Positions 14,685-60,677 of a stretch of DNA of 64,000 nt are shown here, in pieces (the first letter of the stretch is position 1; every line of letters begins with the position of its first letter). The position numbers and the translations under genes were made by a program. The notes under the pieces are model-generated. The model had not been told where the DNA came from and searched no databases. It saw only the letters and a list, made by a program, of their open reading frames with translations. The DNA is from Vampirovibrionales bacterium. GTDB lineage: Bacteria > Cyanobacteriota > Vampirovibrionia > Vampirovibrionales > Vampirovibrionaceae. The stretch lies in the NCBI GenBank assembly GCA_029866025.1, contig JARXAD010000002.1:299688-363687 (forward strand), given 5' to 3'.

Positions 14685-15052
14685 ATGCGTCTTAGTTTTT
14701 CCTCCCTCCATTCTTATTCAGCCAGCGACATTTTTTTGGCAAGAATTCAAATAAAGATCAGAAAAAAGTAAATAAAAATTTTTTAGGTGGGGCTGAGTAC
14801 GGAAATCAATTAGAGCTTCGTTTTAAAACAAAATCATCGGCAGATTCGGCTTTATCTCGCGCCAAAAGACTTGGTTTTGAAGTATCAGAACCACTTAACT
14901 ATCGCTCTACGGACAATAGTGGCTGGATGTTTAAAGTATCAGAACCTCACGGTAAAGGCGCTGAAGACTTGTTTACGCCGTTAGGTATTCTCACTACTTC
15001 TAACAGCCCCGGAGAAAGTGGCGGCACACTGTATAACCCTGCCCCAAATTAG
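14685..15052 (+). pseudogene. Small F-G-motif protein gene, frame broken at a T7 tract
   Basis: ATG 14685 has an excellent ribosome site (AAGGAG, 7-nt spacing). The frame reads MRLSFSSLHSYSASDIF and then meets T7 (14731-14737), after which it ends within 12 codons. One base back, the reading continues without stops as FFGKNSNKDQKKVNKNFLGG, then AEYGNQLELRFKTKSS and on to TLYNPAPN, stopping at TAG 15050-15052. One extra T, or a -1 slip on T-TTT-TTG, would restore a ~122-aa protein. The joined N-terminus SDIFFGKNSNKD resembles TPYFGNKTQSD and ATYFGNNSVKK of the genes at 59760 and 60183. It may be a pseudogene, a slippage-controlled gene or a sequencing error. The product is not otherwise recognised. 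Confidence 0.6.
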
Positions 15053-15167
15053 CCATCTGCTTTATCTCCATTATTTAAGCGATACCACGGCTATACGGTC
15101 ACGCTCTTTATGGCTTTTGGTGTAGAATACAGCCTATGCTTTTTATGAAGGATAGATTGGGCTCTCT

Positions 15168-16358
15168 ATGAAAATTCACGAGTATCAAGCTAAAGAACTC
15201 TTCCGTCAGGCCAACATCCCCGTGCCAATGGGCTATGCTGCCAGCACCGTAGACGAGGCCATTGCCGCTGCCGCAAAATTATCCACCCCCAAAGTGGTGG
15301 TTAAAGCCCAAATTCATGCCGGTGGGCGCGGCAAAGGCGGCGGCGTTAAGGTGGTGGATAACACCCCCGAGGCTGTTCGCACCGCTGCTACTGCCATCTT
15401 GGGCATGCAACTCATCACCCACCAAACCGGCCCCGAGGGCCAAACGGTGAAAAGCCTCCTCATTGAAGAAGGCTCTGCCATTGCTACCGAACTGTACCTT
15501 AGCTTTATCCTCGATCGTGCCAACTCCCAAGTGTTGGTGATGGCCAGCCCCGATGGCGGCATGGATATTGAAGAAGTGGCAGAAAAAACCCCCGAGCGCT
15601 TGCTGAAGCGCCACATCCACCCGGCGGTGGGTATGCCTGCCTATTTGGTACGAGAAATCTGCCAATTTTTGGCCATTCCCAAAGAAGGCGCCAAAGAAGC
15701 CGCTCAACTCATTACCAACCTCTACAACCTGTATGTGGAAAAAGATTGTTCCTTGGTGGAAATCAACCCCCTAGTCGTCACCACCGATAATCGCGTGCTG
15801 GCCCTCGATGGTAAAGTCACCTTTGATAGCAACGCGCTGTATCGCCACCCTGCCATTGTGGCCCTGCGCGATACCGATGAGGAAGACCCACTGGAAGTAG
15901 AAGCCAGCAAGTTTAACCTCAACTACATTAAGCTGGATGGCAACGTGGCCTGCATGGTGAACGGTGCTGGGCTGGCCATGGCCACCATGGATATTATCAA
16001 GCTGGTGGGCGAAAAAACCGGCGCAGCCCCCGCCAACTTTTTGGATGTAGGCGGTAGCGCCAGTCAAGACGGCATTGAAAACGCCTTCCGCATTATTATG
16101 AGCGACCCCAGCGTGGAAGTGGTGCTCATCAACATTTTCGGCGGCATTTTGCGTTGCGATAAGCTGGCCAACGGTGTGGTGGCCGCTGCCAAAAACCTCG
16201 ATATGAAGCTCCCCATGGTCATTCGTATGAAGGGCACCAACGTGGAGCAGGGCAAAGAGATTCTCGCCAACAGCGATATTCAGTTTGCCGTGGCAGAAAC
16301 CATGAAGGAAGCCGCCGAAAAAGTCGTTCAGTTTTTGAAACAACCGGTTGGAGTGTAA
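15168..16358 (+). CDS. sucC: Succinate-CoA ligase, beta subunit
   Basis: Forms the nucleotide-binding subunit of succinyl-CoA synthetase in the TCA cycle. MKIHEYQAKELFRQANIPVP is the family N-terminus, VVKAQIHAGGRGKGGGVKVV belongs to the ATP-grasp fold, LVEINPLVVT follows, and GAGLAMATMDIIKLVG plus NFLDVGGSAS form the CoA-ligase domain. Length 396 aa is normal. sucD begins 3 nt later, so the two form an operon. Confidence 0.97.
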   Translation: MKIHEYQAKELFRQANIPVPMGYAASTVDEAIAAAAKLSTPKVVVKAQIHAGGRGKGGGVKVVDNTPEAVRTAATAILGMQLITHQTGPEGQTVKSLLIEEGSAIATELYLSFILDRANSQVLVMASPDGGMDIEEVAEKTPERLLKRHIHPAVGMPAYLVREICQFLAIPKEGAKEAAQLITNLYNLYVEKDCSLVEINPLVVTTDNRVLALDGKVTFDSNALYRHPAIVALRDTDEEDPLEVEASKFNLNYIKLDGNVACMVNGAGLAMATMDIIKLVGEKTGAAPANFLDVGGSASQDGIENAFRIIMSDPSVEVVLINIFGGILRCDKLANGVVAAAKNLDMKLPMVIRMKGTNVEQGKEILANSDIQFAVAETMKEAAEKVVQFLKQPVGV

Positions 16359-16361
16359 CCC

Positions 16362-17249
16362 ATGCCTGTTCTCGTTGATCAACACACCAAGCTCATTGTC
16401 CAAGGCCTTACGGGCAAAGAAGGCGCTTTTCACGCCGAGCAGTGCGCCGCTTACGGCACCCAAGTGGTTGGGGGCGTTACCCCCGGCAAAGGCGGCACCA
16501 TGGTAGACGTAAACGGTAAATCCGTGCCCCTGTTTAACACCGTGCGAGACGCCGTAAACGCCACTGGCGCCAATGCCAGCGTGATTTTTGTACCACCTCC
16601 CTTTGCAGCCGATGCCATTTTGGAAGCTGCCGATGCCGAATTACCCTTGGTCATCTGCATTACGGAAGGCATCCCTGTGGCCGACATGGTGAAAGTTAAA
16701 GCGTTCCTCAACGATCACCCCAAAACCCGCCTCATTGGACCCAACTGCCCCGGTGTGATTTCCCCCGGCTTGGCCAAAATTGGCATTATGCCCGGCCACA
16801 TTCACAAAACCGGCAACGTGGGCATCGTCTCCCGCTCCGGCACCCTCACCTATGAGGCCGTGGATCAATTGACTCAGTTGGGTATTGGCCAAAGCACCTG
16901 CATTGGCATTGGTGGCGACCCCATCAACGGCACCAACTTCATTGATTGCCTCACCCTTTTCCAAAACGATCCTGCCACGGATGCCATAGTCATGATTGGC
17001 GAAATTGGGGGCACCGCCGAGGAAGAAGCGGCTGCTTTTGCCAAAGAATCGGTGACTAAGCCCATTGTGTGTTTCATTGCCGGCCAATCGGCCCCTCCTG
17101 GGCGTCGTATGGGCCATGCAGGCGCTATTATTAGCGGCGGTAAAGGCACGGCTACCGAGAAAAAAGCCGCCCTGCAAGCCGCAGGCGTTACGGTGGTGGA
17201 TAGCCCTGCCGTCATTGGCGAAGCCGTCGCTTCTGTCCTTCACCGCTAG
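16362..17249 (+). CDS. sucD: Succinate-CoA ligase, alpha subunit
   Basis: The CoA-binding and phospho-histidine subunit of succinyl-CoA synthetase. Key blocks: [12 protein letters not shown] (CoA-binding fold), [63 protein letters not shown], and [18 protein letters not shown] with the phosphorylated His. Length is 295 aa. A terminator follows at 17259. Confidence 0.97.
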
Positions 17250-17258
17250 GAAGGGCAT

Positions 17259-17283
17259 CCCCTCCTTTTTGAAGGGGCTTTTT
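17259..17283 (+). terminator. Terminator after sucCD
   Basis: CCCCT / AGGGG stem (17259-17263 with 17273-17277) followed by CTTTTTG, 10 bp after the sucD stop. Confidence 0.7.
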
Positions 17284-17453
17284 GAACGCCATCCCGCGCA
17301 TTAGGACTTATTGTTGCCAACACACAGATTGCGACTCTCGTAACGATTACTCCCCTTCTGTGACAAAACCCTTGAATTGATCCCACGATCTGTGGCATTC
17401 TTGGGGACCTTTCTTTTCACATCCTTTGATTCCCACCACGGGAGGACCCCCCC

Positions 17454-17747
17454 ATGACGACTACTCAAAAAGAAGCCACCCAAATTGCCGTTGCCGAGCG
17501 CGATACCACCCTTAATCCGCGTCAACTGCGCTTTGCCGGTAAAATTCCCGCCACCGTGTACGGCAAAGGCCGCGACCCTCAATCCATTCAAATGGACACC
17601 CACACCTTTGTGATGCACCTTTCCAAAGGCCAGCGCAACTTTAGCCTCGAAGGCTTGGGCGCCACCCCTGTGGCCGTAAAAGCCCATCAGGTGCAAATTA
17701 ACCCCATTAGCCAGCAAGTGCTTAATGTGGAATTTTTGGCCCAGTAG
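17454..17747 (+). CDS. rplY: Ribosomal protein L25, short form
   Basis: Binds 5S rRNA in the large ribosomal subunit. RQLRFAGKIPATVYGKGRDP matches the L25 block LRKEGKIPAVLYGKG, and VQINPISQQVLNVEFLAQ matches the end of the 5S-binding domain. At 97 aa it is the short E. coli-like form without the CTC-type C-terminal domain. The ribosome site is GGGAGGA, followed by a C7 run that fills the spacer to the ATG. A terminator follows. Confidence 0.88.
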   Translation: MTTTQKEATQIAVAERDTTLNPRQLRFAGKIPATVYGKGRDPQSIQMDTHTFVMHLSKGQRNFSLEGLGATPVAVKAHQVQINPISQQVLNVEFLAQ

Positions 17748-17804
17748 ACCGCAAATCGGGCGTTTATAATTAATTTGGCTCTAGTCCAAAGCCTTAATTT
17801 TACT

Positions 17805-17840
17805 AAAAGCCCTTCAACCTGTTTGAGGGGCTTTTGCTTT
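17805..17840 (+). terminator. Terminator after rplY
   Basis: AAAAGCCC-TTCAA pairs with TTGA-GGGGCTTTT around a short loop, with a T-rich tail. The A-rich 5' arm would give U's on the other strand, so it may serve the convergent flavoprotein gene too. Confidence 0.75.
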
Positions 17841-17877
17841 TCCTATTATTTCCGAAAATTGAGACAATGGAAATCCA

Positions 17878-17903
17878 AAAGGTTGACGTTAACGTCAACC
17901 TTT
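17878..17903. repeat. Perfect 26-bp palindrome with core GTTGACGTTAACGTCAAC
   Basis: The two halves mirror exactly around 17890/17891 (AAAGGTTGACGTT and its complement). It covers the stop codon of the flavoprotein gene (17895) and lies between converging genes. The same 18-bp core recurs inside the mannosidase gene at 62276. It could be a repetitive palindromic unit or a dimeric regulator operator. Confidence 0.75.
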
Positions 17904-19178
17904 GACGTGAGAAGGCGTTTTTAAAACCGATTGCCCCGCTATCCAGCCGCTGGTCCATGCGTGTTGAAAGTTAAAGCCCCCCGTAATGCCATCGACATCC
18001 ACGGCTTCCCCCACCACAAACAAGCCCGGCAAGGCTTTCGCCTCATAGGTTTTTAAATTTAGTCCTGCTGTTGCCACACCACCAGCGGTGACAAACTCTT
18101 CTTTAAACACGCCTTTACCACTCACAGCAATAGGCCACCGCACCAGCGCTTCTGCGAGTAAGTTCAGGGCTTTGTTGGGCATGTCTCCCCACAGGGTTGA
18201 TGGCTGATAATTGGCTTGTTTTCCATGAGTAGTCAGCAAATACTCCCATAGACGCTTTGGGATAGCGGGGGGAGACTGATTCACCGCCTGCTGCTTGGGA
18301 TGCTCTTGCTTAGTGGCTAATAGCCATTCGCGAATGGCGTCTTGGGTGAGCTCTGGCCACCAATTGAGGCGGAGCTGGGCTTGATACTGCTGCTCGTGGA
18401 GCAAGCGCGCGCCCCACGCCGATAGACGCAAGATACACGGTCCACTCAACCCCCAATGGGTTACCAGTAGTGGCCCTTCTTGAATGATCGGCTTACCTTC
18501 TTTTGGAATCAAGGTTCCTACCACATGTTGGACGGAAACCCCTTGTAACGCATGAAGATCTGCATCATCAACCTTAAAAGTAAACAGAGAGGGAGCGGGT
18601 GACACCATGAGCAAGCCCAGGCCTTCTAACAGTTTGTAACCACCGCCACTCCCGCCCGTGGCCACAATCACTGCTTTGGCTTGCCAGCGGGTACTCCCCG
18701 CCATACTCTCTGTCTCCAAAGAAAAGCCCGATGCCGTGGGGATCATGTTTTGCACGCGCTCGCCCGTGCGAAGTGCCACGCCCAACTGGATACGCTCCCG
18801 TTGCAAACAGTCGATGATGGTTTGAGAGTCATCGGTGACAGGAAATAGTCGCCCGTCCACCTCGGTTTTAAGGCGAACCCCGCGCGACTGGAACCACTCC
18901 ATGGTTTGGGCGGGACCAAACTGGGTAAACAGGTGGCGCAAGGTTTTGTGGGCCCGAGGGTACGATGCCACGAGTGCGGCGGGATCAAAACAAGCGTGTG
19001 TGACGTTACACCGCCCCCCGCCTGAAATTTTGACTTTCGCCAACGTATGATTTGTCGCTTCTAAAATCACCACATGGGCGGTTGGGTTAGCTTCTTTGGC
19101 CGAAAGTGCGGCAAAAAACCCAGCAGCGCCCCCACCTATTACAATCACATCGGCTTTTTGCACAGCAGCATCAGACAC
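17895..19178 (-). CDS. YhiN/HI0933-family FAD-dependent oxidoreductase
   Basis: A flavoprotein of the HI0933/YhiN family (Rossmann FAD fold); its physiological substrate is uncertain. The N-terminal dinucleotide motif VIVIGGGAAGFFAALSA is at residues ~11-27, and KVKISGGGRCNVTHA is the family signature. VIVATGGSGGGYKLLEGLGL is the second FAD motif. AGLNLKTYEAKALPGLFVVG and DVDGITGGFNFQHAWTSG close the FAD site. Length 427 aa is normal. The GTG start at 19178 overlaps the folP stop by 8 bp, so the two are translationally coupled. Its stop codon lies inside the 17878 palindrome. Confidence 0.88.
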   Translation of the reverse strand: MSDAAVQKADVIVIGGGAAGFFAALSAKEANPTAHVVILEATNHTLAKVKISGGGRCNVTHACFDPAALVASYPRAHKTLRHLFTQFGPAQTMEWFQSRGVRLKTEVDGRLFPVTDDSQTIIDCLQRERIQLGVALRTGERVQNMIPTASGFSLETESMAGSTRWQAKAVIVATGGSGGGYKLLEGLGLLMVSPAPSLFTFKVDDADLHALQGVSVQHVVGTLIPKEGKPIIQEGPLLVTHWGLSGPCILRLSAWGARLLHEQQYQAQLRLNWWPELTQDAIREWLLATKQEHPKQQAVNQSPPAIPKRLWEYLLTTHGKQANYQPSTLWGDMPNKALNLLAEALVRWPIAVSGKGVFKEEFVTAGGVATAGLNLKTYEAKALPGLFVVGEAVDVDGITGGFNFQHAWTSGWIAGQSVLKTPSHVKG

Positions 19179-20049
19179 AGGCTTGCTCTTTCATGATCCT
19201 TTGAGACAGGCGGGTGGCTTGGGCCTGCATTGCTTGAACCAAGGCCAACACCGGCTGCACCACCTGAGGATTATGCACTCGAAACCACGAACACCCTGCC
19301 ATGGCCCCATGCCATAGGGTGGCAGCTGTTAGCGCATCGCGCTCTAGGGGCGGAATCATGTCGTTCCTTAGGGCCAAAAAGGATTTACGAGACGTGCCCA
19401 ACAATACGGGAAACCCGCATGCAGTAAATTCACCCAGGTGAGACAGCAGTTGCAGATTGTGTTCCACGGTTTTACCAAAGCCAAAGCCCACATCCCACAC
19501 AATGTTTTTTTCCAGCACACCATGGTGAATGGCACTCTCTGTTTGGCGCTGCAAAAAATCGTTAACCTCTCTTACCACATTCTCGTAGCAAGGGTTTTGC
19601 TGCATGGTTTGTGGCGTGCCTTGGCTGTGCATGAGAATCAGGGTGGCTTGAGAATACGCTACAACCTGCACCATTGCGGGGTCGTACGTTAATCCGCTCA
19701 CATCATTCACAATACTCGCTCCAGCGTCTATCGCAGCCTTTGCCACAGACGCTTTGCGTGTATCCACACTAATAGAAATTGTTGGAAAGTGCTGGCGCAG
19801 GGCTGTGATTACCGGTACCACGCGAGACAATTCTTCATCCAAGGGTATGGTTGTCGCCCCCGGGCGGGTGGATTCTCCCCCCACATCCAACACCGAACAG
19901 CCATGGTCTATTAGCCATTGAGCATGAGCCAAAACAGCATCCAGCTTACATTCGTCTCGGCTCGTTAGGCATTGCCCCCCGTCGCTAAAGCTATCGGGGG
20001 TGAGGTTAAGAATACCCATAAGGGTGTGGGTGGCAGCGGGTAAAGTCAT
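19171..20049 (-). CDS. folP: Dihydropteroate synthase
   Basis: Condenses p-aminobenzoate with dihydropterin pyrophosphate in folate synthesis and is the sulfonamide target. Motifs: MGILNLTPDSFSDGG (residues 12-26), LDVGGESTRPGA, SISVDTRKASVAKAAIDAGA, IVNDVSGL, and GFGFGKTVEHNLQLL plus VLLGTSRKSFLA. Length 292 aa is normal. It sits upstream of, and overlaps, the YhiN-type gene. The folate gene pabA is elsewhere in the window (43570). Confidence 0.95.
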   Translation of the reverse strand: MTLPAATHTLMGILNLTPDSFSDGGQCLTSRDECKLDAVLAHAQWLIDHGCSVLDVGGESTRPGATTIPLDEELSRVVPVITALRQHFPTISISVDTRKASVAKAAIDAGASIVNDVSGLTYDPAMVQVVAYSQATLILMHSQGTPQTMQQNPCYENVVREVNDFLQRQTESAIHHGVLEKNIVWDVGFGFGKTVEHNLQLLSHLGEFTACGFPVLLGTSRKSFLALRNDMIPPLERDALTAATLWHGAMAGCSWFRVHNPQVVQPVLALVQAMQAQATRLSQRIMKEQACV

Positions 20050-20080
20050 CCACTACAGCTTATCACCCAAAAAAGGTGGG

Positions 20081-28917: not shown

Positions 28918-29448
28918 CTATTTTTTAGCCATTTCTTCTTCAACTCGGCGGTTTGCGGCTGCTATGGCTTCCTCTAGTGGCACCCCCTTTTCCACGTCCC
29001 GGTTTATTTGTGCCTGCTGCCCTAACCCTAAGTTCATTCTCCTCAAATTTCGCATATTAACAAGCCTAGCGTCTAATCCTTTCAGCCATTCGTCAAAAGA
29101 GGTTGCGCCAAATTGCACGTGGGCAAAGGGGCTGGTGGTGTGGTTGGCGGCAAAGGTTGTTTTTTTCTTGTTTTTTGGTCCTGTACCTAAACGTTGCTGC
29201 TCTTGGTCCCATGCTGCTACAGCTTCACTCGCCTTGGCTTGGCGGGCCGCCCAAGCAGCATCTCTCTGTACAAGATCAAGCAGGTCATACTGTTGGCCGT
29301 CTATTTCAACGCGCTGATTAGAACCGTTGCCTAAACTAAATGATATATCATCAGAAAAATCATATCTGCCAGTAAAGGTAGGCTTGGCTGGCAATATATT
29401 AAAGGTTCTCGGGGGGGGGGGCAACGGAGCTGATAAGCATGGGGGCAT
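28918..29448 (-). CDS. Hypothetical F-G-motif protein with a C11 tract at its 5' end
   Basis: About 175 aa, not recognised by family. The N-terminus reads through PAKPTFTGRYDFSDD, an F-x-G motif like those of other proteins here. The middle is charged and helical (AAWARQAKASEAVAAWDQEQ). Two starts exist. ATG 29448 is directly adjacent to AAGGAG (no spacer). ATG 29440, 8 nt downstream of AAGGAG (optimal), lies in another frame and ends after 13 codons (MLISSVAPPPENL). The two frames cross at C11 (29411-29421): with 10 C's the well-placed ATG would read MLISSVAPPPRTFNILPAKP and on into the body. In this sequence the gene may therefore be off, or phase-variable, or the tract mis-called. Confidence 0.6.
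   Translation of the reverse strand: MPPCLSAPLPPPPRTFNILPAKPTFTGRYDFSDDISFSLGNGSNQRVEIDGQQYDLLDLVQRDAAWAARQAKASEAVAAWDQEQQRLGTGPKNKKKTTFAANHTTSPFAHVQFGATSFDEWLKGLDARLVNMRNLRRMNLGLGQQAQINRDVEKGVPLEEAIAAANRRVEEEMAKK
29411..29421. repeat. Homopolymer G11 (C11 on the coding strand)
   Basis: Eleven identical bases inside the 5' coding region of the 28918-29448 gene. Runs of this length are prone to slipped-strand change in length. Confidence 0.9.
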
Positions 29449-36381: not shown

Positions 36382-36471
36382 TAGCCTTGCCAAGAAGTTC
36401 TCTAACAGAGAATGGCTTTCAGGGGCTTTTATCATCATGAGTTAGAGCCCCCAAAGCCCTTGGTTTCTGCT

Positions 36472-37578
36472 ATGAATGATTTTTCGGTCAATGTTGTAGG
36501 ACCTCGATCCTTTGCAACACACAAAGAACGCCAAAGCACTGCCGCCTTTTTTAAAGCCCCCTTGGGGGTACGCTTTGGCCAGGCAGATACGATTGCCGAA
36601 ACCATTGAACAAAAAATTGAAAAAAAACGACAACGCAGCATTAAGGCCCGAACAGCCGATTGGTTTAAAGCCCCTCAATGGCTGAAGGAGTGGCGCACCT
36701 TGGGTGAGAAAATAACCACTGGCTTTTTCAGCCTGCTTCCTGCATCGTTTTTTAGGTGGATTGAGCGAAAAACCATTTTTGTGGGCAACAACTTATCCGA
36801 TGTGAAAATTTCCCTGGAAGACTATAAAGCCGTTGCCAACAAAAGTGCCAACAGCACTGAAAAGAAAATCATTAATAGCATTCAAGAGGTTCACCTTGAT
36901 CCCAAGGGTGTTAATTCATTGGCGTGGCACGTTAAAGCCAAGCCCGGAAAACCCACGTTTTTAGTCTCTATGGGCAATACAGGTAGCCTTAAAAACCTGG
37001 GTACCTATTATTTACCCTTAATGAAAGAGGGCTGTGGTGTTTTAATGTACGAATACCCTGGCTACGGCAGTACCCATGGTATTCCTAGCCAAGACACCTG
37101 CACCCATGCGGCCCGAAAAGCCTTTGATTACCTGGCGACTGAACAAAAATTAACGCCCAAAAGCGACATTGTTTTGTATGGCTGTTCATTGGGAGGTGCC
37201 GTCTCGCTGCAATTGGTAGACGCCTTGGCCAAAGAAAGCATTCAGCCCAAAGCCCTTATTTTAGAATCCACCCTTACCCGTACCGCCGATGTGGTACAAC
37301 ATGCCATTAAACAATGGTTACCCAGCTGGCTTTTTCCTTTACATAAATTTGTTCAATCGCCTTTCCCCTCTATTGATGTGATTAAGAACTACACCGGAAA
37401 ATTATTAATATTACATGGCACCTACGACAATCTGATGGATAACTCCATGGGCGCAGAATTATACGCAGAAGCCGGAACACACGAAACCCAGAAAAAATTT
37501 GTCCCCATGGTTGGGTACCACAATTTAGATAACAATAAGACCTCGGAAGAAATCTTGAAGTTTATCAAAACACTGTAA
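36472..37578 (+). CDS. Alpha/beta hydrolase with F-G-type N-terminus
   Basis: An alpha/beta-hydrolase of serine type. YGCSLGGAVSL is the nucleophile elbow, with the Ser about residue 239 from this start. Asp in ILHGTYDNLMDN and His in VGYHNLDNN complete a plausible triad. The oxyanion region is VSMGNTGSLKN, and the strand YEYPGYGSTHG is typical of BEM46/BAAT-like lipases and esterases. The N-terminal ~100 residues are unlike the family and contain PLGVRFGQADTIA, a possible member of the F-G motif set. The start is ambiguous: ATG 36412 or 36472 (chosen by length of conserved part). Its substrate is unknown. Confidence 0.75.
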   Translation: MNDFSVNVVGPRSFATHKERQSTAAFFKAPLGVRFGQADTIAETIEQKIEKKRQRSIKARTADWFKAPQWLKEWRTLGEKITTGFFSLLPASFFRWIERKTIFVGNNLSDVKISLEDYKAVANKSANSTEKKIINSIQEVHLDPKGVNSLAWHVKAKPGKPTFLVSMGNTGSLKNLGTYYLPLMKEGCGVLMYEYPGYGSTHGIPSQDTCTHAARKAFDYLATEQKLTPKSDIVLYGCSLGGAVSLQLVDALAKESIQPKALILESTLTRTADVVQHAIKQWLPSWLFPLHKFVQSPFPSIDVIKNYTGKLLILHGTYDNLMDNSMGAELYAEAGTHETQKKFVPMVGYHNLDNNKTSEEILKFIKTL

Positions 37579-40373: not shown

Positions 40374-40691
40374 TTAGACAACCATATCTAGCTGCTTAAT
40401 GCCCACACTTTCAGCCAAAGCTAAAAGATTTTGTGACTTTGCACCATTAATTTCGTTAATAATTTCGTTCGTTGCCAAGTCACGATACACTGGCTTTTTG
40501 GGCAGCGCCAAGAATTTCTCTGCTTCTGGTCCCCATAACAAAAGATTATCTCGTTTAGCACCTGAAATATTAATCAGATGCTCTGGGTTCTCCTCCTTAA
40601 AGATTTTTTGTATTTGTGCTTCTAGTGCAGCCCTATGTTCGTTGGTTCTTGAACCGATTATGAGTCGGGCGCCAGCAAAATTAATCATCAT
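40374..40691 (-). CDS. Hypothetical protein with internal sequence repeat
   Basis: 105 aa, not recognised. A weak internal repeat is visible: INISGAKRDNLLLW and INEINGAKSQNLLALA, about 40 residues apart. The N-terminus MMINFAGARLI has an F-x-G pattern. The sequence is more AT-rich than its neighbours. The ribosome site AAGGA lies 4 nt before ATG 40691 (7 nt before the next ATG at 40688). The long hairpin-dense region upstream may be its leader. Confidence 0.55.
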   Translation of the reverse strand: MMINFAGARLIIGSRTNEHRAALEAQIQKIFKEENPEHLINISGAKRDNLLLWGPEAEKFLALPKKPVYRDLATNEIINEINGAKSQNLLALAESVGIKQLDMVV

Positions 40692-44265: not shown

Positions 44266-44886
44266 TTACTTGGGGTCGAGGGGTTGTATTGTTTTTGGCA
44301 CCAAACCAATGGTAATAAGAAATGGTTGCCATCGCTTACGTTCTGGTAATTGTAATGCCGATAAAAAGTCCATTGACTGATCGTGTAACGCCCATGCTTT
44401 TTGCTCGCGGCCGGTGTCATCGATTTTAGATTCTCGGTGATAGCTTTTTGACGTCATTGTTTTCTGAAATTTATACTGCTTACGACCTTCTTTAACCGAA
44501 TAGTAGTTACGGTTTATTTGCAATCGCACAAACAAACGGTTGGCTTTATCCTGTTCACCTGTTTTTTTCAAAGCGTCTTGCACCAAATAAAAAAGGCTAC
44601 GTGTATATGAACTGGGATGAAACTGCCCAAACAAAGCTGTGAATCGAATCATCCACGGTAACTGACAACAGCCAATGGATAACTCTTTAATATCCCGCTC
44701 AAAATTAGATTGTAAAAGTTTAGTACACAGTCGTTCTGCCAGCTCTTCGTTAGGCCGCAGCTTATAATCTTTGGCTTGGGTAGCAAACAATGCCCCAAAA
44801 AATGGGGGGGATTTCCGCCGGCACCGTATTGGTGAGGGATTCATACTCATTAAAGTACAGCTAAAGCTGGTTGGTGATACCTGCAT
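44266..44886 (-). CDS. Hypothetical F-G-motif protein with C7/T6 run near its start
   Basis: 206 aa, not recognised. The N-terminus contains RRKSPPFFGALFATQAKDYK, an F-G motif after a Pro-Pro pair. It is encoded by C7 (44804-44810) and T6. The body is charged and helical (LAERLCTKLLQSNFERDIKE) with no catalytic motif noticed. Upstream of the C7 run an alternative frame (NEYESLTNTVPAEI) would join the FFG reading if one C were missing, but it has no good start, so the present frame from ATG 44886 is kept. No ribosome site is clear. It is followed by pabA on the same strand. Confidence 0.55.
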   Translation of the reverse strand: MQVSPTSFSCTLMSMNPSPIRCRRKSPPFFGALFATQAKDYKLRPNEELAERLCTKLLQSNFERDIKELSIGCCQLPWMIRFTALFGQFHPSSYTRSLFYLVQDALKKTGEQDKANRLFVRLQINRNYYSVKEGRKQYKFQKTMTSKSYHRESKIDDTGREQKAWALHDQSMDFLSALQLPERKRWQPFLITIGLVPKTIQPLDPK

Positions 44887-44992: not shown

Positions 44993-46450
44993 ATGACCCC
45001 AGCCACCACCATCCAAAAACGTCACCCCATTACCTTTGGCACCGACGGCTGGCGCGCCATCATGGCCCAAGATTTTACCTTTGATAACGTCACACTGGTG
45101 GTGCGTGCCATTCACCAAACTTTATTGGACCGCTGGGGCCACCAAGACAAACCCGTGTTTATTGGCTTTGATGGCCGCTTTTTAGGCAAGCAATTTGCCC
45201 ACCACGCCGCCGATATTCTCAACAGCTTAGGCTGGGATGTGCTGATGGTGCCCCACTACACCCCCACCCCCTTGGTTGCATTCTCTGCCAAACATTACGA
45301 CACCGCCGGCGCCCTAATGCTAACCGCCAGCCACAACCCCCCCGAATACATGGGCCTTAAATTCATTCCTGAATACGCAGGCCCTGCCACCCAAGACATT
45401 ACCGACACCATTATTCGCCACGTAGACCGCATTGCCGAAGAAGCCACCCCCTTAACGAAAGCCGCTCAGACGGGCACCACCACCGTGGTGGATTGCTACG
45501 CCGACTACGTGGCTTTTTTACGCAACAGTGTGGATTTTACGGCCTTAAAAGCCGCCAACATAAAACTGGTGTACGACCCCATGTACGGCGCTGGCTTTGG
45601 CTACTTTGACCGCATTTTGCGGGAAGAAACCAGCATCAAGCCCCTCACCATCCACAACCGCATTGACCCCAGCTTTGGCGGCCACCTGCCCGAACCCAAC
45701 GCCGCCCACCTTGGGGAACTAATGGCACGCGTGCCTGCCGAAGGCGCCGCACTGGGCTTGGCCAACGACGGCGATGCCGATCGCTTTGGGGTGATTGACG
45801 AAACGGGCCGATTCCTCAGTGCCAACCAAATTATTCCCATGCTGGCGCGATATTGTTACCGCCGCAAAGGCTTACGTGGCAGCGTGGTGCGTTCCGTGGC
45901 TACCTCTCGTTTGCTGGATGCCCTAGCCGAAAAATGGGGCATTGACTGCCATGAAACCAAAGTGGGCTTTAAGCACATGGGCGCCATTATGCGCCAAGAA
46001 CCCGTGATTATTGGTGGCGAAGAAGCCGGCGGCCTTAGCATTCAAACCCACATACCCGAAAAAGACGGCATTTTGGCAGGGCTGCTGATTTTAGAAATGA
46101 TGGCGGTAGAGAAAAAATCCCTCAGCCGCATTTTGGCCGACACCGAAGCCGAAGCAGGCGTGCACCTAATAGGACTCGCCGAAAATCTCCACCTGTCCGA
46201 CACCGCCAAGCAAGCCCTCATGGCCTCTATGCGCCGATTGCAAGCGGGCGACCTCTTTGCCAAGCGCCCCATTACTGAAGTGGTCACCCTCGAAGGCATC
46301 AAGCTGCTGTTTAACGCTACGGATTGGATTTTGGTTCGCCCCAGCGGCACCGAGCCCATTATTCGCGTGTATGGCGAAACCACCGACCCCCTAGCCACCC
46401 AAGAGCTTAAAACCGCCATGGAAGCCCTGGTGGCCAGTTGCAGCGCCTAG
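44993..46450 (+). CDS. Phosphoglucomutase/phosphomannomutase family protein
   Basis: Alpha-D-phosphohexomutase: moves phosphate between C1 and C6 of a hexose to supply nucleotide-sugar synthesis. FGTDGWRAIMAQDFTFDNV is the N-terminal block. LMLTASHNPPEYMGLKF holds the phosphoserine (TASHNPP). LANDGDADRFGVID is the metal-binding DGDxDR loop. GGEEAGGLSIQTHIPEKDG is the sugar-specificity loop and VRPSGTEPIIRVYGE the phosphate-binding loop. 485 aa. It resembles the cyanobacterial type; glucose or mannose preference cannot be told. A terminator follows. Confidence 0.92.
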   Translation: MTPATTIQKRHPITFGTDGWRAIMAQDFTFDNVTLVVRAIHQTLLDRWGHQDKPVFIGFDGRFLGKQFAHHAADILNSLGWDVLMVPHYTPTPLVAFSAKHYDTAGALMLTASHNPPEYMGLKFIPEYAGPATQDITDTIIRHVDRIAEEATPLTKAAQTGTTTVVDCYADYVAFLRNSVDFTALKAANIKLVYDPMYGAGFGYFDRILREETSIKPLTIHNRIDPSFGGHLPEPNAAHLGELMARVPAEGAALGLANDGDADRFGVIDETGRFLSANQIIPMLARYCYRRKGLRGSVVRSVATSRLLDALAEKWGIDCHETKVGFKHMGAIMRQEPVIIGGEEAGGLSIQTHIPEKDGILAGLLILEMMAVEKKSLSRILADTEAEAGVHLIGLAENLHLSDTAKQALMASMRRLQAGDLFAKRPITEVVTLEGIKLLFNATDWILVRPSGTEPIIRVYGETTDPLATQELKTAMEALVASCSA

Positions 46451-48838: not shown

Positions 48839-48839
48839 A

Positions 48840-52149: not shown

Positions 52150-53418
52150 ATGCAAGTTCTCTCTCCAACACCCTCATCCCCGTTCAGCAGCCCAGAGATA
52201 GCAGGGCCACAGTTTGGCAATGGCTGGCAACGCCTTATATCTAAGGTTGGACGCGGTGGTGAGCACCTGAATACGCTGCTATCAAAAATTCGTAACACCG
52301 ATACCTTCCAAAGCCTTCAATACAGCAAAGATTTTACCCTAGAGATTGGCGAGGTCTTTCCAGCAGCGGTAACGGCCAGTGTGTTGCTGTATTTACTGGG
52401 ACAGCAACAGCGAGAATTGGATGACCCTAAAGCACCGCTGCGGCTCTTGGCCGAATCGGCTGCAGTCTATGCCTTAACAACCTATACCAGCTATGTTATT
52501 CCCGTATTGGGGCTGTTGGGTATTACCTATACTGCTGGCCAGCAAGAAACCGTTTTAGACAAAATCAAGCATAGTGGCGTTGCAGCCCTAGGAACACTGG
52601 GCAGCTTATTAGGCACCTGGTTTGGCGTGGGTATTAACATGAATAAAACCCAGCGGGATGTGGCTAAAACGCTAGAATGGCTTCCCGACACCAGGGCTTA
52701 CTTAAAAAATCACGCCACAAAGCTCATCAATGCCTGGGAGCCAGAAGAAATACCCAATACCCTAAAAACCCCCAAAGCAATTGCTGCCTATAAAACACAA
52801 CTGCGCCAAGATATTTTGCAGCACCTAAAGGATTTTGAAAAAAAATTAACCAACGGCCACGAAGCCTTGTTAAAAACTTACCAAGCCAACCCTAAAGGCG
52901 CATCCATTGTGGGCCGTATTCGCTTGCGCCAGCAACTAAGCACGGTGTTTAGTGAGTTATGGAACCACTTAAAACCTGCCCATGAAGCGCTTAGCCTGGG
53001 CAGAGAAACCCCAGGGTTGACCAGCGCCCTAAAGTTGAGCCGTCGGCTAGAAACCATGAATGCCGGGTACGTGCGTGCTGTTCGATGGGCCAATCCCATC
53101 TTTTTTGGCGTGTTGGGTAGTTTGGCGTTTCAGTTGTTAACCCCGGCGTGGGAACACCTGTGCGACTGGATCCTCACCAATCGAGTGGGCCATGCTCGCC
53201 TTGAGCTTCCTTCTCATACCCTTCTTAATCACCACGGTGACGAGGCGAGCGCAGGGCATAGCAACGTGTTGTGGCAGCAACACCTCAACAACCGCTTTAA
53301 CGCCTTTGCCGGAGACGGCTTGCCCCAAGATCCGTTTTCTGAAACAACGCATCAAGAAACGTTACTGACCCAAGCTGGTGAAGGCCTGTTGGATCGCGCC
53401 ATTCATGGGCCATTTTAA
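52150..53418 (+). CDS. Membrane protein with N-terminal F-G motif
   Basis: ~422 aa, not recognised. After MQVLSPTPSSPFSSPEIAG comes PQFGNGWQRL, the F-G motif at residue ~21. Hydrophobic segments occur at about 80-100 (FPAAVTASVLLYLLGQ), 125-150 (TSYVIPVLGLLGITYTAG), 155-180 (GVAALGTLGSLLGTWFGVGI) and 310-330 (NPIFFGVLGSLAFQLLT), so it is an integral membrane protein. The C-terminus has LNNRFNAFAG, like RRFNAFA of the 56870 protein. ATG 52150 is chosen (a TTG 12 bp earlier is possible); no ribosome site is evident. It lies upstream of groESL and convergent with the EF-hand gene. Confidence 0.6.
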   Translation: MQVLSPTPSSPFSSPEIAGPQFGNGWQRLISKVGRGGEHLNTLLSKIRNTDTFQSLQYSKDFTLEIGEVFPAAVTASVLLYLLGQQQRELDDPKAPLRLLAESAAVYALTTYTSYVIPVLGLLGITYTAGQQETVLDKIKHSGVAALGTLGSLLGTWFGVGINMNKTQRDVAKTLEWLPDTRAYLKNHATKLINAWEPEEIPNTLKTPKAIAAYKTQLRQDILQHLKDFEKKLTNGHEALLKTYQANPKGASIVGRIRLRQQLSTVFSELWNHLKPAHEALSLGRETPGLTSALKLSRRLETMNAGYVRAVRWANPIFFGVLGSLAFQLLTPAWEHLCDWILTNRVGHARLELPSHTLLNHHGDEASAGHSNVLWQQHLNNRFNAFAGDGLPQDPFSETTHQETLLTQAGEGLLDRAIHGPF

Positions 53419-54152: not shown

Positions 54153-54259
54153 ACACCCCCAGCCCGAAAACTCGAACCGAGGGTGAATTGTTATAATGAA
54201 CCTTTTCAGAGGTTTTGAAGCTTACGCAACAAGGCCCTTGAAAAAGCGTCGTTCGACGC

Positions 54260-55930
<1,671 letters not shown>

Positions 55931-55992
55931 TTAAAAACCAACCTGCTTTAAGCGCTTACGCGAAAAACAAGTTAACAAAGGGGCGTTCGCCC

Positions 55993-56304
55993 CTATTCGG
56001 CAAGAATACCGAGGATGTCGCGTTCGGCCATGATTTTGTATTCCACACCGTCTTGTTTTAGCTCGGTACCGCCGTATTTGGCAAACATTACCAAGTCGCC
56101 CACTTTCACGGTCATGGGTTCTTTGGTGCCGTTGTCCAAGGTGCGTCCGGTGCCGATGGCAATAATGCGGCCTTTGACGGGCTTTTCACGGGCGGTATCA
56201 GGAATATAAATACCACCGGCAGTGGTTTGTTGATCGTCGATGACTTCAATCACCACACGGTCGGCCAACGGCTGAAGTTGTAATTTTTGCTTAGTAGCGC
56301 TCAT
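55993..56304 (-). CDS. groES: Co-chaperonin GroES (10 kDa)
   Basis: Caps the GroEL ring. LQPLADRVVIEVIDDQQTTA, GGIYIPDTAREKPVKGRIIA, VKVGDLVMFAKYGGTEL and YKIMAERDILGILA are typical, with the mobile loop around residues 20-36. ATG 56304 is used, preceded by GGAG at 10 nt; the longer frame to 56337 lacks family residues. 103 aa. groEL follows. Confidence 0.97.
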   Translation of the reverse strand: MSATKQKLQLQPLADRVVIEVIDDQQTTAGGIYIPDTAREKPVKGRIIAIGTGRTLDNGTKEPMTVKVGDLVMFAKYGGTELKQDGVEYKIMAERDILGILAE

Positions 56305-56682
56305 AACAGGTATTCTCCACAAACAGAGGACTAACAATCATTCCTAGCAACCGTCGCCACGGGCAAACCCGCAACGCCTGTCTATCGGAATAGATGCATC
56401 GTAAAAAAGACCTCCCAGTCTGTCTATACGATCCTCCCAAACATAAGAATCTCTTAAGATTCACCCGCAAAGCGGGCCTTTATTAATCATTAGCCTTATC
56501 GGCTACCGTTTCAGTGATTGGGCTTCGTCTTCCTCAGTCACTTGATGTTAGGAAATATCCATTGCATATCAGTTCAGCGGACTTGCCTCTGCCCATGTTT
56601 ACCGTACAAATAAGTTAGCAACTACTTTGTAGTTTTTTCGCCATTCGCGCAACTTTTATTCTTCAGGTGTTTTAACCCTTTT
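56305..56682. other. groES upstream region, no gene seen
   Basis: 378 bp without a convincing protein gene. It holds an inverted repeat GAATCT-ctta-AGATTC (about 56446-56461) and a CCCGC-aaa-GCGGG hairpin followed by CCTTTATT (56464-56483). No CIRCE element (TTAGCACTC-N9-GAGTGCTAA) was found, so HrcA control is not indicated from this region. The groESL promoter must lie here. Confidence 0.5.
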
Positions 56683-56769
56683 ATGAACAACGTATTCATC
56701 ACCACTGGCTCCGGCTCCACTACCTCTACCACTTCGGTGGCAGGGCCATTTGGTGCTAGCGGGCAATAA
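56683..56769 (+). CDS. Possible 28-aa peptide with an F-G motif
   Basis: ATG at 56683 gives 28 residues, Ser/Thr/Gly-rich, ending SVAGPFGASGQ. The terminator at 56793 follows 23 bp after its stop, as if it were a short transcript. Its FGA string is like the FFGA of the gene at 44886. The ribosome site is weak (CAGG at ~15 nt), so it may not be translated. Confidence 0.3.
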   Translation: MNNVFITTGSGSTTSTTSVAGPFGASGQ

Positions 56770-56792
56770 CAAGCATTCTCCCCAAAGCATAC

Positions 56793-56825
56793 AAAAAGCC
56801 CTGCCACCTCGGTTAGGGCTTTTTT
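56793..56825. terminator. Bidirectional-type terminator hairpin
   Basis: AAAAAGCCCT (56793-56802) pairs with AGGGCTTTTT (56815-56824). The A and T flanks make it work on both strands. It ends the short peptide transcript or a - strand transcript, 45 bp before the next gene. Confidence 0.75.
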
Positions 56826-56869
56826 GTTACTCACTTTAATTTTCTAGTCTCCTCGTTTTAGGTTTCACC

Positions 56870-58126
56870 ATGATTGGCAACCTCTTCACCACCGCACTAG
56901 GCTCGTTAGAACGAAGCCCTTACACCTTTGCCCTGGTGCAAGAGGTGGCTGGCAGTAACCTGCCCAAAACCTTTATGACACGAACTAGTAATGAGCGGGT
57001 GGACGTTGCAGCAGGCCAGTTTGGTGGCACCGTGGCCTTTTTTGGCAGCGGCTGGGGCTTGGATAAATTACTGAATTGGGCCTACAAGCGTTTTGCCCAC
57101 ATTGATTTGAATGCATTAAAAGAATCTACTGTCCCCATTGCGGCAATGGAAAAGCGTCATTTATGGGCCATTTCGGGTAAATCCGCTGCTATTTTTGCCA
57201 TACAAGGGGCCTTGTACTGGGCGGTGCCCTTTGCACGAAACATTTTGACGGCTAAACGCACGGGTAGTGGCAACTTTGCCGATGTGATTACCAACGGCAA
57301 CCAGCAACCCGTAACCACCGAACAAAAACGAGCCAAAGCCCAAGAGGCCAAAGAAAAAATAGCCTATTGCAAGCGCATGGTATGCAAAATACTAGGCGGT
57401 GGGGCGTTAGTAGCCTTAGGGGCCCTAGGGCTGGCCGCTGTTGGCATTAAGCGTGGCTGGGGCATTGGCCAACTTAAAGGCCAGTGGGGCAATAAGTTAT
57501 TAGAAACCTTTGCTTTGGCCCGCGGCGACTTGGGTAATTACCCCAAGTGGTCTCAATTTTTGTTTATTGCGGTGGCATCGTATGCCGGGTGGATTCATGC
57601 CGTGCGCGACAAATTTGAACTGAAAGAGCAACTGCTGCAATTTGGCGGCTTTTTATTTGGCTGGTTTGGCCCCCCCGCATGGGCAAAAACCTTGTTTAAC
57701 AAGCGTTTCCAATCGTTATTAGAAAAACACGTACCCAACAAAACGGATGCTGATGCCTTGTATAAAAAGGTCATGGGCACCAACTGGAACGGCACGGAAG
57801 GCAAAAGTCTCAGCATAGGAGAGGTGGAAAAACACTTAGCCCATCTACCTGAAGTCGCTCAAAAAGCCAAAGCCCTGTGCGCCAAACAAACCGGATTTGG
57901 CCTCCTCGTTTCTGCCATTTTACTCGGGGCCATTCCTCAGTTCATTAACTGGCAGCTTACGGCAGGGCGCATGGCAAGCAAAAACGCAGGCGGTGATATT
58001 AAACAAGCATCGTCAACAGCAGCGATGCTAGCCCCCGTTAGCCCGGTGCAACAAGCCGCTCTTAGACGCTTTAACGCCTTTGCCCAGCCGTACAATCCCG
58101 CTATTCAACAAGCCCAACGGGCTTAA
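56870..58126 (+). CDS. Hypothetical multi-helix membrane protein
   Basis: 418 aa, not recognised. Hydrophobic stretches: SGKSAAIFAIQGALYWAVPF (about 103-122), ILGGGALVALGALGLAAVGI (about 174-193), FLFIAVASYAGWIHAV (about 227-242) and LLVSAILLGAIPQFINW (about 344-360). A charged helix separates the first two (KRAKAQEAKEKIAYCKRMVC). The C-terminal region contains LRRFNAFAQPYNP, like LNNRFNAFAG in the 52150 protein, so the two may be remote paralogues flanking groESL. TTTAGG lies upstream of the ATG. Its last 4 bp overlap the convergent fliK. Confidence 0.6.
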   Translation: MIGNLFTTALGSLERSPYTFALVQEVAGSNLPKTFMTRTSNERVDVAAGQFGGTVAFFGSGWGLDKLLNWAYKRFAHIDLNALKESTVPIAAMEKRHLWAISGKSAAIFAIQGALYWAVPFARNILTAKRTGSGNFADVITNGNQQPVTTEQKRAKAQEAKEKIAYCKRMVCKILGGGALVALGALGLAAVGIKRGWGIGQLKGQWGNKLLETFALARGDLGNYPKWSQFLFIAVASYAGWIHAVRDKFELKEQLLQFGGFLFGWFGPPAWAKTLFNKRFQSLLEKHVPNKTDADALYKKVMGTNWNGTEGKSLSIGEVEKHLAHLPEVAQKAKALCAKQTGFGLLVSAILLGAIPQFINWQLTAGRMASKNAGGDIKQASSTAAMLAPVSPVQQAALRRFNAFAQPYNPAIQQAQRA

Positions 58127-58941
58127 TTGGCTTGCTCACCGTCAGAATCCTCAGGCTGTGTCTGTTTCTCGGGCTGCTGGCCTTGCTGGCTTGGGCGGCT
58201 TTCGTCGCGCCACGTAATGGAATCCACCGGCAGTTGCTTGCTGGCCAAGTGCTCTTGCAAGTCTCGGCTGGTTTGCTGCAACACGCCCATCATGCCCGCA
58301 TCGTAGCCCACAAATTGGGCCTGCACCTTACCGGCGTGTATTTTTAAAATAAGATCCGCCTGACCTGCCAAACTCACCCGCAGGGTCTTGCCTCGCATGG
58401 CATCGCCTTTTAGCCACGCCTGCACCGAATCGCCCATGGTGCTGGCCACGCTGGAGGCCCCGCCACTGCCGTCATCAGTGGGTTGGCCCCATTGCAAGGG
58501 TAATTGAGCTAAAAGCGGCTGCCAGCCCACCGCCATGCCATTGGCCGGGGCGGCTTGCGCCGAGGCTGTTTCCAGCATCCACTCCAAAAAGCGCTCGTCA
58601 TCGGGCTTAATGGGGGTTTTTAAATGCACTTCATCGGTAGGGCCATTGTTGCCTTGTAGCCGCGCAGCCGCCTCTTGCGACAGGGCTTTTTCACCCTCTG
58701 GCTTGGGCGCTTCTTTTTTAGGCGACGTTTTTTGGGCTGCAACCACAGGAGAAGCAGCAGCACCGCTCTGCAACAGCCCTTCAGCAGCAGAAGATTGCAG
58801 CATTTCCCAAAAGCCTACGGCACCCGTCAGCTTGTCTACGCCACGTTCGCCTTTAAGCCCCAGTGGCGGCAACGTCTCTAACGGATCATTAAGGGATCCT
58901 CGGCGACTTTGAAGAGTAATGGGTGTTGGGTTCATCGTCAT
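58123..58941 (-). CDS. fliK: Flagellar hook-length control protein FliK (C-terminal domain)
   Basis: FliK measures hook length and switches export specificity. The C-terminal Flg_hook domain is recognised at RGKTLRVSLAGQADLILKIH, then KVQAQFVGYDAGMMGVLQQT and SRDLQEHLASKQLPVDSITW (about residues 180-245). The N-terminal two thirds are low-complexity, Ala/Pro/Lys/Glu-rich, as expected for FliK. 272 aa is short for the family (usually 350-450). Start ATG 58941. It follows fliJ by 53 bp on the same strand, the usual fliJ-fliK order. Confidence 0.8.
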   Translation of the reverse strand: MTMNPTPITLQSRRGSLNDPLETLPPLGLKGERGVDKLTGAVGFWEMLQSSAAEGLLQSGAAASPVVAAQKTSPKKEAPKPEGEKALSQEAAARLQGNNGPTDEVHLKTPIKPDDERFLEWMLETASAQAAPANGMAVGWQPLLAQLPLQWGQPTDDGSGGASSVASTMGDSVQAWLKGDAMRGKTLRVSLAGQADLILKIHAGKVQAQFVGYDAGMMGVLQQTSRDLQEHLASKQLPVDSITWRDESRPSQQGQQPEKQTQPEDSDGEQAN

Positions 58942-58994
58942 GCTTTCGTCAAAACAATGGCGTGCTAAAGGGCAAACGCTGCAAAAATTGCCTT

Positions 58995-59510
58995 CTAAAA
59001 GGCTCCCATGCCTTCCGGCACATCGCCTCCATGCTCGGCCCTATAGATTTCTAGGTCCTCAGCATCTTCCACGGCTTTGGCCAGCTTGTTACGGAAAAAC
59101 CGCTGGGTGGCCACTTCATCCAAAATTTTCATTTCGGCACGTTTTTCTTCGGCCTTCCATTCGTCGTAGGCTTTTTCTTTGTGCTTTACCAGTGCTTCCA
59201 TTTCCGCCTGATATTCAATCAACCGCTTGGCTTCTTCCACCACACGACGCTCAGCTTGGTGGCGCTCTTGTTCCAGCACTTCCAACTCTTGCATGCTCCG
59301 GTGAATAAAGCGATCGTGCATGGCCAACAGCGTATGAGGCCCTGCGTGCATGCTTTGCTGGGCACTACGAATCTCTTGTTGTTTGGCCAATACTTTTTGC
59401 TGGGCTTGGGCCAAGAATTTTTTGGCCTCAATCACCACTTGTTCTTGTTCTTTAACCTTACGCTCGCGCATTTCTAACACTTTTTGCAAGCGGTATACAA
59501 AACGTGCCAT
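58995..59510 (-). CDS. fliJ: Flagellar export chaperone FliJ
   Basis: Coiled-coil protein that links the export ATPase FliI to the gate. ARFVYRLQKVLEMRERKVKE is the FliJ N-terminus and the long helical body (EQEQVVIEAKKFLAQAQQKV, then EVLEQERHQAERRVVEEAKR) is heptad-rich. ATG 59510 is used because FliJ proteins start MA-F-xxRLQ; the frame reaches 59543. 171 aa is close to usual. Followed by fliK. Confidence 0.75.
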   Translation of the reverse strand: MARFVYRLQKVLEMRERKVKEQEQVVIEAKKFLAQAQQKVLAKQQEIRSAQQSMHAGPHTLLAMHDRFIHRSMQELEVLEQERHQAERRVVEEAKRLIEYQAEMEALVKHKEKAYDEWKAEEKRAEMKILDEVATQRFFRNKLAKAVEDAEDLEIYRAEHGGDVPEGMGAF

Positions 59511-59759
59511 ATGCGTCAGTCCATCCCTAAATGCAGCAGCCACTGTTTTGTGGCGGGCTTTACTAAATGATTAGTAACTGGATCATTAGTACTGAGTGAG
59601 TATAAGTGGGTATCGGCCCAATGCCACTGTAACATTAGGTAAAACTACCCATGCGTTATGAGGATGGCTGCCTAGCATCAAATCCCCTTGAGGGGCTTTA
59701 ATAGAAGTATCAACCCACAACTCACCCCAATTCACTTTGTCCCCAACAAAGGAGCCCCC

Positions 59760-60155
59760 ATGACCACCATTGCTTCTGGAGCCACCCCCTATTTTGGCAA
59801 CAAAACCCAAAGCGATAAAGCTAAGCGCAGCCCGTTTTTTTACCGCCAAACCCAAGGCAAGGTCAATTTAAACCGCTTTGAGCGCGGCAAAGCTTACATT
59901 GGAAGCTCTGAACACCTTAAAGCAGGATTTAACGAGGCCCAGCAGTGGCTTAAAGGCAAAAGCGTTATTGGCAAAGTTATTGCTATTGGCATGCTAGCCA
60001 GCACAGCAGCCTTGGAATTTGTAATTTCTCCCCTCACTATCGGTATTTGGTCATTAGGCAAAATATTTTTCCCCAGCCTAAACCTCAGTGGTTTGGGGCG
60101 TGCCTTCCATTATGGCGTGCAAAAATCGTATGAACTCAGCAAAACCGCTAAATAA
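59760..60155 (+). CDS. F-G-motif membrane-type protein, paralogue A
   Basis: 131 aa. The N-terminus MTTIASGATPYFGNKTQSDK has the F-G motif at residue 12-13. A soluble stretch (NRFERGKAYIGSSEHLKAGF) precedes a hydrophobic core (GKVIAIGMLASTAALEFVIS, then LTIGIWSLGKIFFPSLNLSG). The end FHYGVQKSYELSKTAK matches the next gene (FHDGVHKAYEKQY), so they are tandem paralogues. AAAGGAG followed by CCCCC and the ATG gives a strong start. Function unknown. Confidence 0.7.
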   Translation: MTTIASGATPYFGNKTQSDKAKRSPFFYRQTQGKVNLNRFERGKAYIGSSEHLKAGFNEAQQWLKGKSVIGKVIAIGMLASTAALEFVISPLTIGIWSLGKIFFPSLNLSGLGRAFHYGVQKSYELSKTAK

Positions 60156-60182
60156 TCCTTTTGCCATTCTTGGAGCTTTATC

Positions 60183-60677
60183 ATGTCTATCACTGCGTTG
60201 CGCCCCACCGCTGCCACATACTTTGGCAACAATAGCGTTAAAAAAAACTTGAATGAGTTGGGTGGAAAAGTTGAAAAAAGCTGGTGGGGCAAACAGCTGT
60301 ACATCATCCCTAACGATACCTCGAAGGTGCCTTGGTATTTACGCTGGAAAGGCTATGGCAGCAAAGCCAACTTAACAGCCGGGTGGAATAACGCCATGGA
60401 CTGGTTTAAACCCAAAGATACCGCCGGAAAAATCTTAGCCATTGCCACATTGGCGGCTGGCATTGCCACTGATTTTGGAGCCCACTTGCTAATTGTGGGC
60501 ATACCTTATGTGGCCAGTAAGGTGCTGTTTACCAACATGAATATTAGCGGCTTTGCCACCGCCTTCCATGATGGGGTTCACAAGGCTTATGAAAAACAAT
60601 ACGTGGACAAACACCCTGAAAAAACTGCAAAAGCAACCCCTTCAAATCCTTCTTCTAGCAAAGATACCGACGACTGA
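60183..60677 (+). CDS. F-G-motif membrane-type protein, paralogue B
   Basis: 164 aa, 27 bp after paralogue A. The N-terminus MSITALRPTAATYFGNNSVK has the motif at residues 14-15, next to an A7 run (60240-60246). The core aligns with paralogue A: LTAGWNNAMDWFKPKDTAGK to GFNEAQQWLKGKSVIGK, then KILAIATLAAGIATDFGAHL (hydrophobic) and FATAFHDGVHKAYEKQ. The tail is Ser/Asp/Lys-rich. Ribosome site TTGGAG at 7 nt. After TGA (60675-60677) the same frame runs 27 more codons without a stop, very rich in Asp/His/Ser, ending at 60761: a possible lost or leaky stop. Confidence 0.7.
   Translation: MSITALRPTAATYFGNNSVKKNLNELGGKVEKSWWGKQLYIIPNDTSKVPWYLRWKGYGSKANLTAGWNNAMDWFKPKDTAGKILAIATLAAGIATDFGAHLLIVGIPYVASKVLFTNMNISGFATAFHDGVHKAYEKQYVDKHPEKTAKATPSNPSSSKDTDD

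Follow-up and report, generated by a model that had tools for sequence, protein, structure and literature searches.

Short N-terminal sorting peptides are already known as a kind. Here, we describe a candidate of this kind, a motif with a Phe-(x)-Gly core (the tag) that recurs near the start of otherwise dissimilar proteins encoded in a stretch of 64,000 nt from a Vampirovibrionales bacterium (contig JARXAD010000002.1, positions 299,688 to 363,687; the whole stretch is called the window) as well as elsewhere in its genome and family. Among described systems, the N-terminal signals of type III injectisomes resemble the tails that carry the tag, i.e., both are flexible, Ser/Thr/Pro-rich, poor in acidic residues and without Sec signal. 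However, type III signals generally have no strict common motif, whereas our carriers share a tight F-(x)-G core and no SctV-type gate scored above cut-off. The gate-recognition motif of flagellar rod and hook subunits, which is recognised at the export gate, is likewise short and Phe-containing and has a hydrophobic residue at +4 spacing, while the tag is found from residue 2 on and shows no hydrophobic +4. A short aromatic-containing motif near the N-terminus of unrelated orphan proteins has also been described in powdery mildew (Y/F/WxC; PMC2886064), but these effector candidates are fungal, carry a signal peptide and are unrelated to ours in organism and residues. The cargo docking peptides of microcompartments and of extracellular contractile injection systems (eCIS) are, like the tag, short N-terminal linear labels on unrelated cargo; they differ from it in sequence. 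A search for the eCIS tail tube (PF06841) had matches in 0/12 genomes, but no control responded either, such that its result carries no information. Signals of type IV secretion systems (T4SS), finally, are usually C-terminal. A T4SS has been proposed for the hydrolytic effectors of Vampirovibrio chlorellavorus (PMC4451040). No description of the motif itself was found in the literature searched, most subscription journals being outside the scope of that search.

We find that the tag is an N-terminal, protein-level motif under constraint that is kept in homologues with otherwise diverged tails. We see an even chance that it serves as a docking motif by which proteins specific to the lineage reach one shared destination, probably via a non-Sec export route.

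Definition and N-terminal enrichment of the motif

The genome of the window (G000; 2.19 Mb, GC content 51-52%, with flagellar genes) was sampled in stretches of 841 kb in total, window included, and eleven further genomes are each represented by stretches of 80-400 kb. The genome is that of a non-photosynthetic relative of cyanobacteria (Vampirovibrionia/Melainabacteria), and its separation from Gastranaerophilales, GC content and flagellar genes suggest Vampirovibrionales, which agrees with PMC4451040. Genes were called with a simple caller based on hexamers plus ribosome-binding sites. For motif counts, the first 40 residues of a protein define its N-terminal region and the rest is considered internal. 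Family-level statistics are based on five genomes of the window's family.

An earlier note on this DNA had suggested the pattern [FYW]F[GT] as a common N-terminal signal. This definition did not hold, since its enrichment is not significant in the own genome (odds ratio (OR) 1.38, p 0.12) or across the five genomes of the family (OR 1.22, p 0.17) and an aromatic residue at position -1 is not the rule. A bare count of FG dipeptides was also discarded; it is weak in the own genome and gives no signal in the others. The neighbours that separate N-terminal from internal FG are K/Y/Q/R at -1 and P/V at -2. The refined motif reads [VPIT][RKQHSTNY]F[AQSTKE]?G, i.e., roughly V/P-x-F-G or V/P-x-F-x-G, with usually K/R/Q/T/S/Y at -1, V/P/I/T at -2 and F-x-G variants included.

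For the refined motif only, the comparison with shuffled sequences and internal positions that the note had proposed yields a pronounced N-terminal excess. That is, 48 matches are found within the first 40 residues of proteins from the own genome (OR 5.8 compared to internal positions, p 1e-16), while within-segment shuffles of the same N-termini provide 8.5 matches on average and 18 at most. For the five family genomes, the motif density is 1.36 per 1000 residues within the first 40 residues vs. 0.30 elsewhere (OR 4.6, p 7e-22). Over the first 20 residues it amounts to about 1.5/1000, it has dropped to 0.3-0.5 at residue 50-60 and is about 0.3 thereafter, and no excess is observed for the C-terminal 50 residues of these genomes (0.2/1000). 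The motif is located 2-50 residues from the protein start. About 5-7% of the sampled genes bear it, most of which are orphans. When F is replaced by Y, L, W or I in the pattern, or when other residue classes are used at -1 or -2, no N-terminal excess is left (OR 0.8-1.1). With A or S in the place of G, a weak excess of about 2 persists.

An earlier pattern, [VITP][KRQSTYNH]FG, was enriched in the own sample when split in two (ORs 5.4 and 7.8) and in genome G004 (OR 3.3), but was written after the lists of the own sample and G004 had been inspected. The F-x-G form was added because of hydrolase homologues (see below), and the pattern was then fixed before fresh genomes were tested. Therein, the fixed pattern is again enriched (OR 6.6 in G006, 3.9 in G007 and 4.1 in G003; pooled 4.9, p 1.2e-6), with the caveat that the homologues from which the pattern was shaped include a few hydrolase genes of these genomes. 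Considered separately in the three fresh genomes, the F-G form has an OR of 7.2, while the F-x-G form does not reach significance on its own (OR 2.2, p 0.17).

The codons used at N-terminal motifs are as varied as those at internal FG. The signal therefore resides in the protein, and a DNA-level element such as an uptake sequence or leader is ruled out. Chance, composition bias or start-codon misannotation could be suspected since FG is a common dipeptide and structural matches do occur (GlmM, RpsB, pilins). Given the shuffling results, the flat substituted patterns, the replication in fresh genomes and the hydrolase tails discussed below, we regard such an explanation as very improbable.

Conservation in homologues and distribution of carriers

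The alpha/beta hydrolase encoded at 36412 (or 36472)..37578 (+ strand; Pfam Hydrolase_4) has an N-terminal extension of about 150 residues that contains VRFG at 36568-36579 (RFGQADT). Homologues are present in 12/18 genomes of the order, and a chlamydial family (NCBIfam CPn0927/CPn0928; E-value 6e-9, far below cut-off) is a remote relative of the protein. An AlphaFold model from the single sequence had a predicted local distance difference test score (pLDDT) of 41 and was not used. Upstream of the conserved domain, the tails of the homologues cannot be aligned and yet hold strings such as VRFGQ, PRFQGR, PQFTGE, VQFAGA and PQFGAS, as well as VHFSGR, IRFAGA, ISFAGK and PRFGAS. The fixed pattern is found in 14/28 tails vs. 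1.4 expected by shuffling (maximum 7 in 2000), a count with some circularity as to the F-x-G form, which these very tails had suggested. None of the four hydrolases with a strongly hydrophobic N-terminal segment (L137, L139, L146, L177) has the motif, while 19/21 tail-type hydrolases show some xxF(x)G form; several hydrolases with doubtful starts or truncation by contig ends were set aside for this comparison. Thus, members of this family have, near-exclusively, either a tail with motif or a hydrophobic N-terminal anchor.

Other homologues also keep the motif outside the alignable region. The tandem paralogues at 59760..60155 (MTTIASGATPYFGNKTQSDK...; PYFG at 59787-59798 within TPYFGNKTQSDK) and 60183..60677 (MSITALRPTAATYFGNNSVKK...; TYFG at 60216-60227 within TYFGNNSVKK), both orphans on the + strand and the latter without Pfam family, are 43% identical downstream of the tail, whereas within their diverged tails only the motif is kept. 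The same is observed for L019:5806 and its G004 counterpart L037:9939, for L028:18386 and G004 L048:5830, and for a pair within G004 with ...TPYFGKVAP. A common N-terminal signal as proposed by the earlier note, whichever of sorting, secretion or modification it may serve, is hence supported by the position-specific enrichment, the replication in other genera, the tail conservation and the tail/anchor exclusivity in hydrolases.

To characterise the carriers, we used 84 proteins of the family sample with at least 70 residues, with obvious structural matches removed. Carriers are shorter than other proteins (median length 198 vs. 291) and less often have a signal-peptide-like start, i.e., a hydrophobic core within the first 35 residues (4.8% vs. 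15.1%), while their transmembrane content is similar (21% vs. 24%). Their tails contain more N, P, S, A, T and Q and less E, D, L and W, and the 25 residues following the tail are rich in K and N. Among larger proteins with a motif-like N-terminus, 7/30 reach a Pfam cut-off, compared to 10/10 random non-carriers. The seven are assigned to FixO, GHL10, threonyl-tRNA synthetase, CheR, mTERF, DHH and collagen; some of their matches are probably due to chance, e.g., the FixO match, which lies inside the domain. Carrier genes are neighbours more often than expected (12 vs. 5.6 by chance, p 0.008), mostly as tandem paralogues.

Some individual loci are recorded here as side observations. In G006, four adjacent orphan genes in two orientations (L171:12750-17988) are all motif-bearing (VQFG, PKFSG, VKFG, IRFG). 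Proteins similar to mTERF, a eukaryotic organelle family, occur in 10 of the 146 class genomes, each of which belongs to the gut family; the one that was read (L058:2597-4435) begins with the motif (CRISFGS). Large ankyrin-repeat expansions are present in G005, G008 and G055 (58, 50 and 73 matches, respectively) and absent from the own genome and G004; no ankyrin carrier was seen, but no ankyrin gene lies within the sampled stretches.

The motif is a typical feature of most genomes sampled from the window's family and turns up sporadically in the rest of the class. Enrichment is not seen in G002 (same family), G016 (same order), G026, G032 and the photosynthetic-side genome G110. The remark in the earlier note that proteins of gut Melainabacteria often start alike is reflected in sporadic examples only: Gastranaerophilales strings resembling the motif are MDKISFGASIK, MNNMQISFQGII, NNPSFQGSN, MDKVSNINFTG and MDKISFTGIKN, as well as MNNMQISFQG, but there is no overall enrichment (OR 0.9 for 1,233 genes from 80 named loci). 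Class-wide enrichment was consequently dropped, being unsupported by G016, G026, G032 and the Gastranaerophilales loci.

Further genes of the window

Within the window, 7/58 called genes match the refined motif, one of which is structural. The latter encodes a phosphoglucomutase/GlmM-type enzyme (44993..46450, + strand) and serves as a negative example: its match ITFGTDGWR is part of the conserved enzyme core, and it was rejected as a tag since the same string is found in GlmM homologues of other genomes. An orphan membrane-like protein with sub-threshold Pfam matches only (52138 (or 52150)..53418, + strand) contains PQFG at 52207-52218 (PQFGNGWQRL). The F-x-G form is present in two genes of the - strand, namely as PTFTG (PTFTGRYDF; about 29382-29368) in an orphan protein (28918..29448) and as INFAG (about 40685-40671) in a small protein starting with MMINFAGARLIIG (40374..40691), which overlaps a + strand open reading frame with a lower coding score. 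The orphan protein at 44266..44886 (- strand; with ...RRKSPPFFGALFATQ) has FFG (PPFFGALFATQ) at about 44802-44794 and is outside the strict pattern.

Six of the seven strings listed by the earlier note are encoded in open frames of the genes it had named. The remaining one, DIFFGKNSNKD, is not encoded as written. It belongs to an apparently frameshifted small gene (14685..15052, + strand), where the frame of the ATG at 14685 crosses a run of seven T (about 14731-14737) into IFLARIQIKIRKK (LARIQIKIRKK). FFGKNSNKD is part of a second frame from 14732 (stop-to-stop 14696-15052), such that the full string would require one extra T. The frame shift may be due to slippage or misassembly, or the gene may be broken.

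Proposed destination of the carriers and rival explanations

We propose that a short linear motif, about [V/P/I/T]-[polar or basic]-F-G or -F-x-G, is part of a flexible Ser/Thr/Pro/Asn-rich, acid-poor tail, from which the Phe-(x)-Gly core would dock into one putative receptor. Through this receptor, numerous proteins specific to the lineage would end up in one place, which most likely lies outside the cytoplasm. The tag would thereby act as an address and not as a catalytic or folding element, and the route would be an export or surface targeting that replaces Sec signal or anchor and serves a predatory or symbiotic lifestyle as known for relatives. We consider alternative targeting or export the best reading because of the tail/anchor either-or in hydrolases, the low number of signal peptides and the tail composition.

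Several observations weigh against it. No receptor or export machine is linked to the motif, obvious effector domains are found in few carriers, and much of the sorting inference rests on the hydrolase family, with its partly circular tail count. Therein, provided that the longest reading of L135 is correct, this hydrolase may combine a hydrophobic start with the motif. Furthermore, the searches for known machinery add to these points. VirB4 (PF03135) was detected in 0/12 genomes (own genome and carriers included) with a responding Caulobacter control. The tag does not match the flagellar gate-recognition motif, given its position from residue 2 on and the missing hydrophobic +4, and G002 as well as G016 possess type III export gates yet show no motif enrichment.

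Concerning the T4SS, the negative VirB4 search covering the own genome and 11 others as well as the N-terminal location of the tag, opposite to the usual place of T4SS signals, make a VirB/D4 effector signal barely credible. What speaks for it is the proposal that predation is mediated by a T4SS (PMC4451040). An N-terminal type III export signal for a flagellar-type apparatus has more in its favour, i.e., the Ser/Thr-rich, acid-poor tail fits the type III signals described in PMC3577856, and full-length gates of the FlhA/SctV family (FHIPEP) are available. The own genome has two of them (G000:C2:331087-333126, L078; G000:C6:31945-33978), the former being the flagellar FlhA and the latter having lower scores with the FHIPEP model as well as with the SctV model, and two are also present in every genome of the order searched except one. 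G032 (none full length) and G110 (none) lack both the two gates and the motif enrichment. A flagellar-type route for the carriers is thus possible. On the other hand, no gate in 24 genomes, including the two of the own genome, exceeds the injectisome SctV cut-off (TIGR01399), and residue F+4 is hydrophobic in 27% of the motifs vs. 40% of all N-terminal F. The described gate-recognition motif is located at least 30 residues in (PMC8983047). Together with G002 and G016, which possess two gates but no enrichment, this renders a type III signal unlikely in our view.

Two flagellum-related side observations are to be mentioned. The G004 flagellin (L047:2038-2856) starts with MITFGGNVHSIRQQ, i.e., ITFG in place of the usual short polar start, while a second flagellin-like gene (L032) is without ITFG. 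In Gastranaerophilales, an additional protein of about 500 residues (L189:8402-9919, L203:8829-10313) joins only the FlhA cytoplasmic C-terminal half to an unrelated N-terminus.

As the main rival reading, the tag may also be an intracellular docking peptide, in which case the tail would bind to a hub in the cytosol or at the membrane (scaffold, chaperone or protease adaptor) and the proteins would stay inside. Motifs as early as residue 2-4 and a multivalent N-terminus as found in one protein (VSFG, AKFG, RFSG, VKFG) fit such docking, as do several carriers that are ordinary enzymes with extensions (CheR-like, DHH, YidD-like). However, the hydrolase either-or with hydrophobic N-terminal anchors points to targeting, and no hub was identified, such that we consider intracellular docking possible but lean against it. 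Returning to export, a more far-reaching version holds that the tag defines what is carried by an export pathway that is undescribed and independent of signal peptides. Such a pathway, be it a new system or a second flagellar-type export gate put to another use, would deliver the proteins by which Vampirovibrionia prey or live in symbiosis. We put this forward as a tentative proposal that we would rather expect to fail.

Relatives of this lineage prey on or associate with other cells, and most candidate proteins for this are unannotated. Here, the tag supplies a candidate list and a handle for finding the receptor. If it is an export address, the predatory secretome of Vampirovibrio-like bacteria becomes directly testable. 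If the carriers indeed are the cargo of an undescribed export pathway, the tag alone would enumerate the effectors of the lineage.

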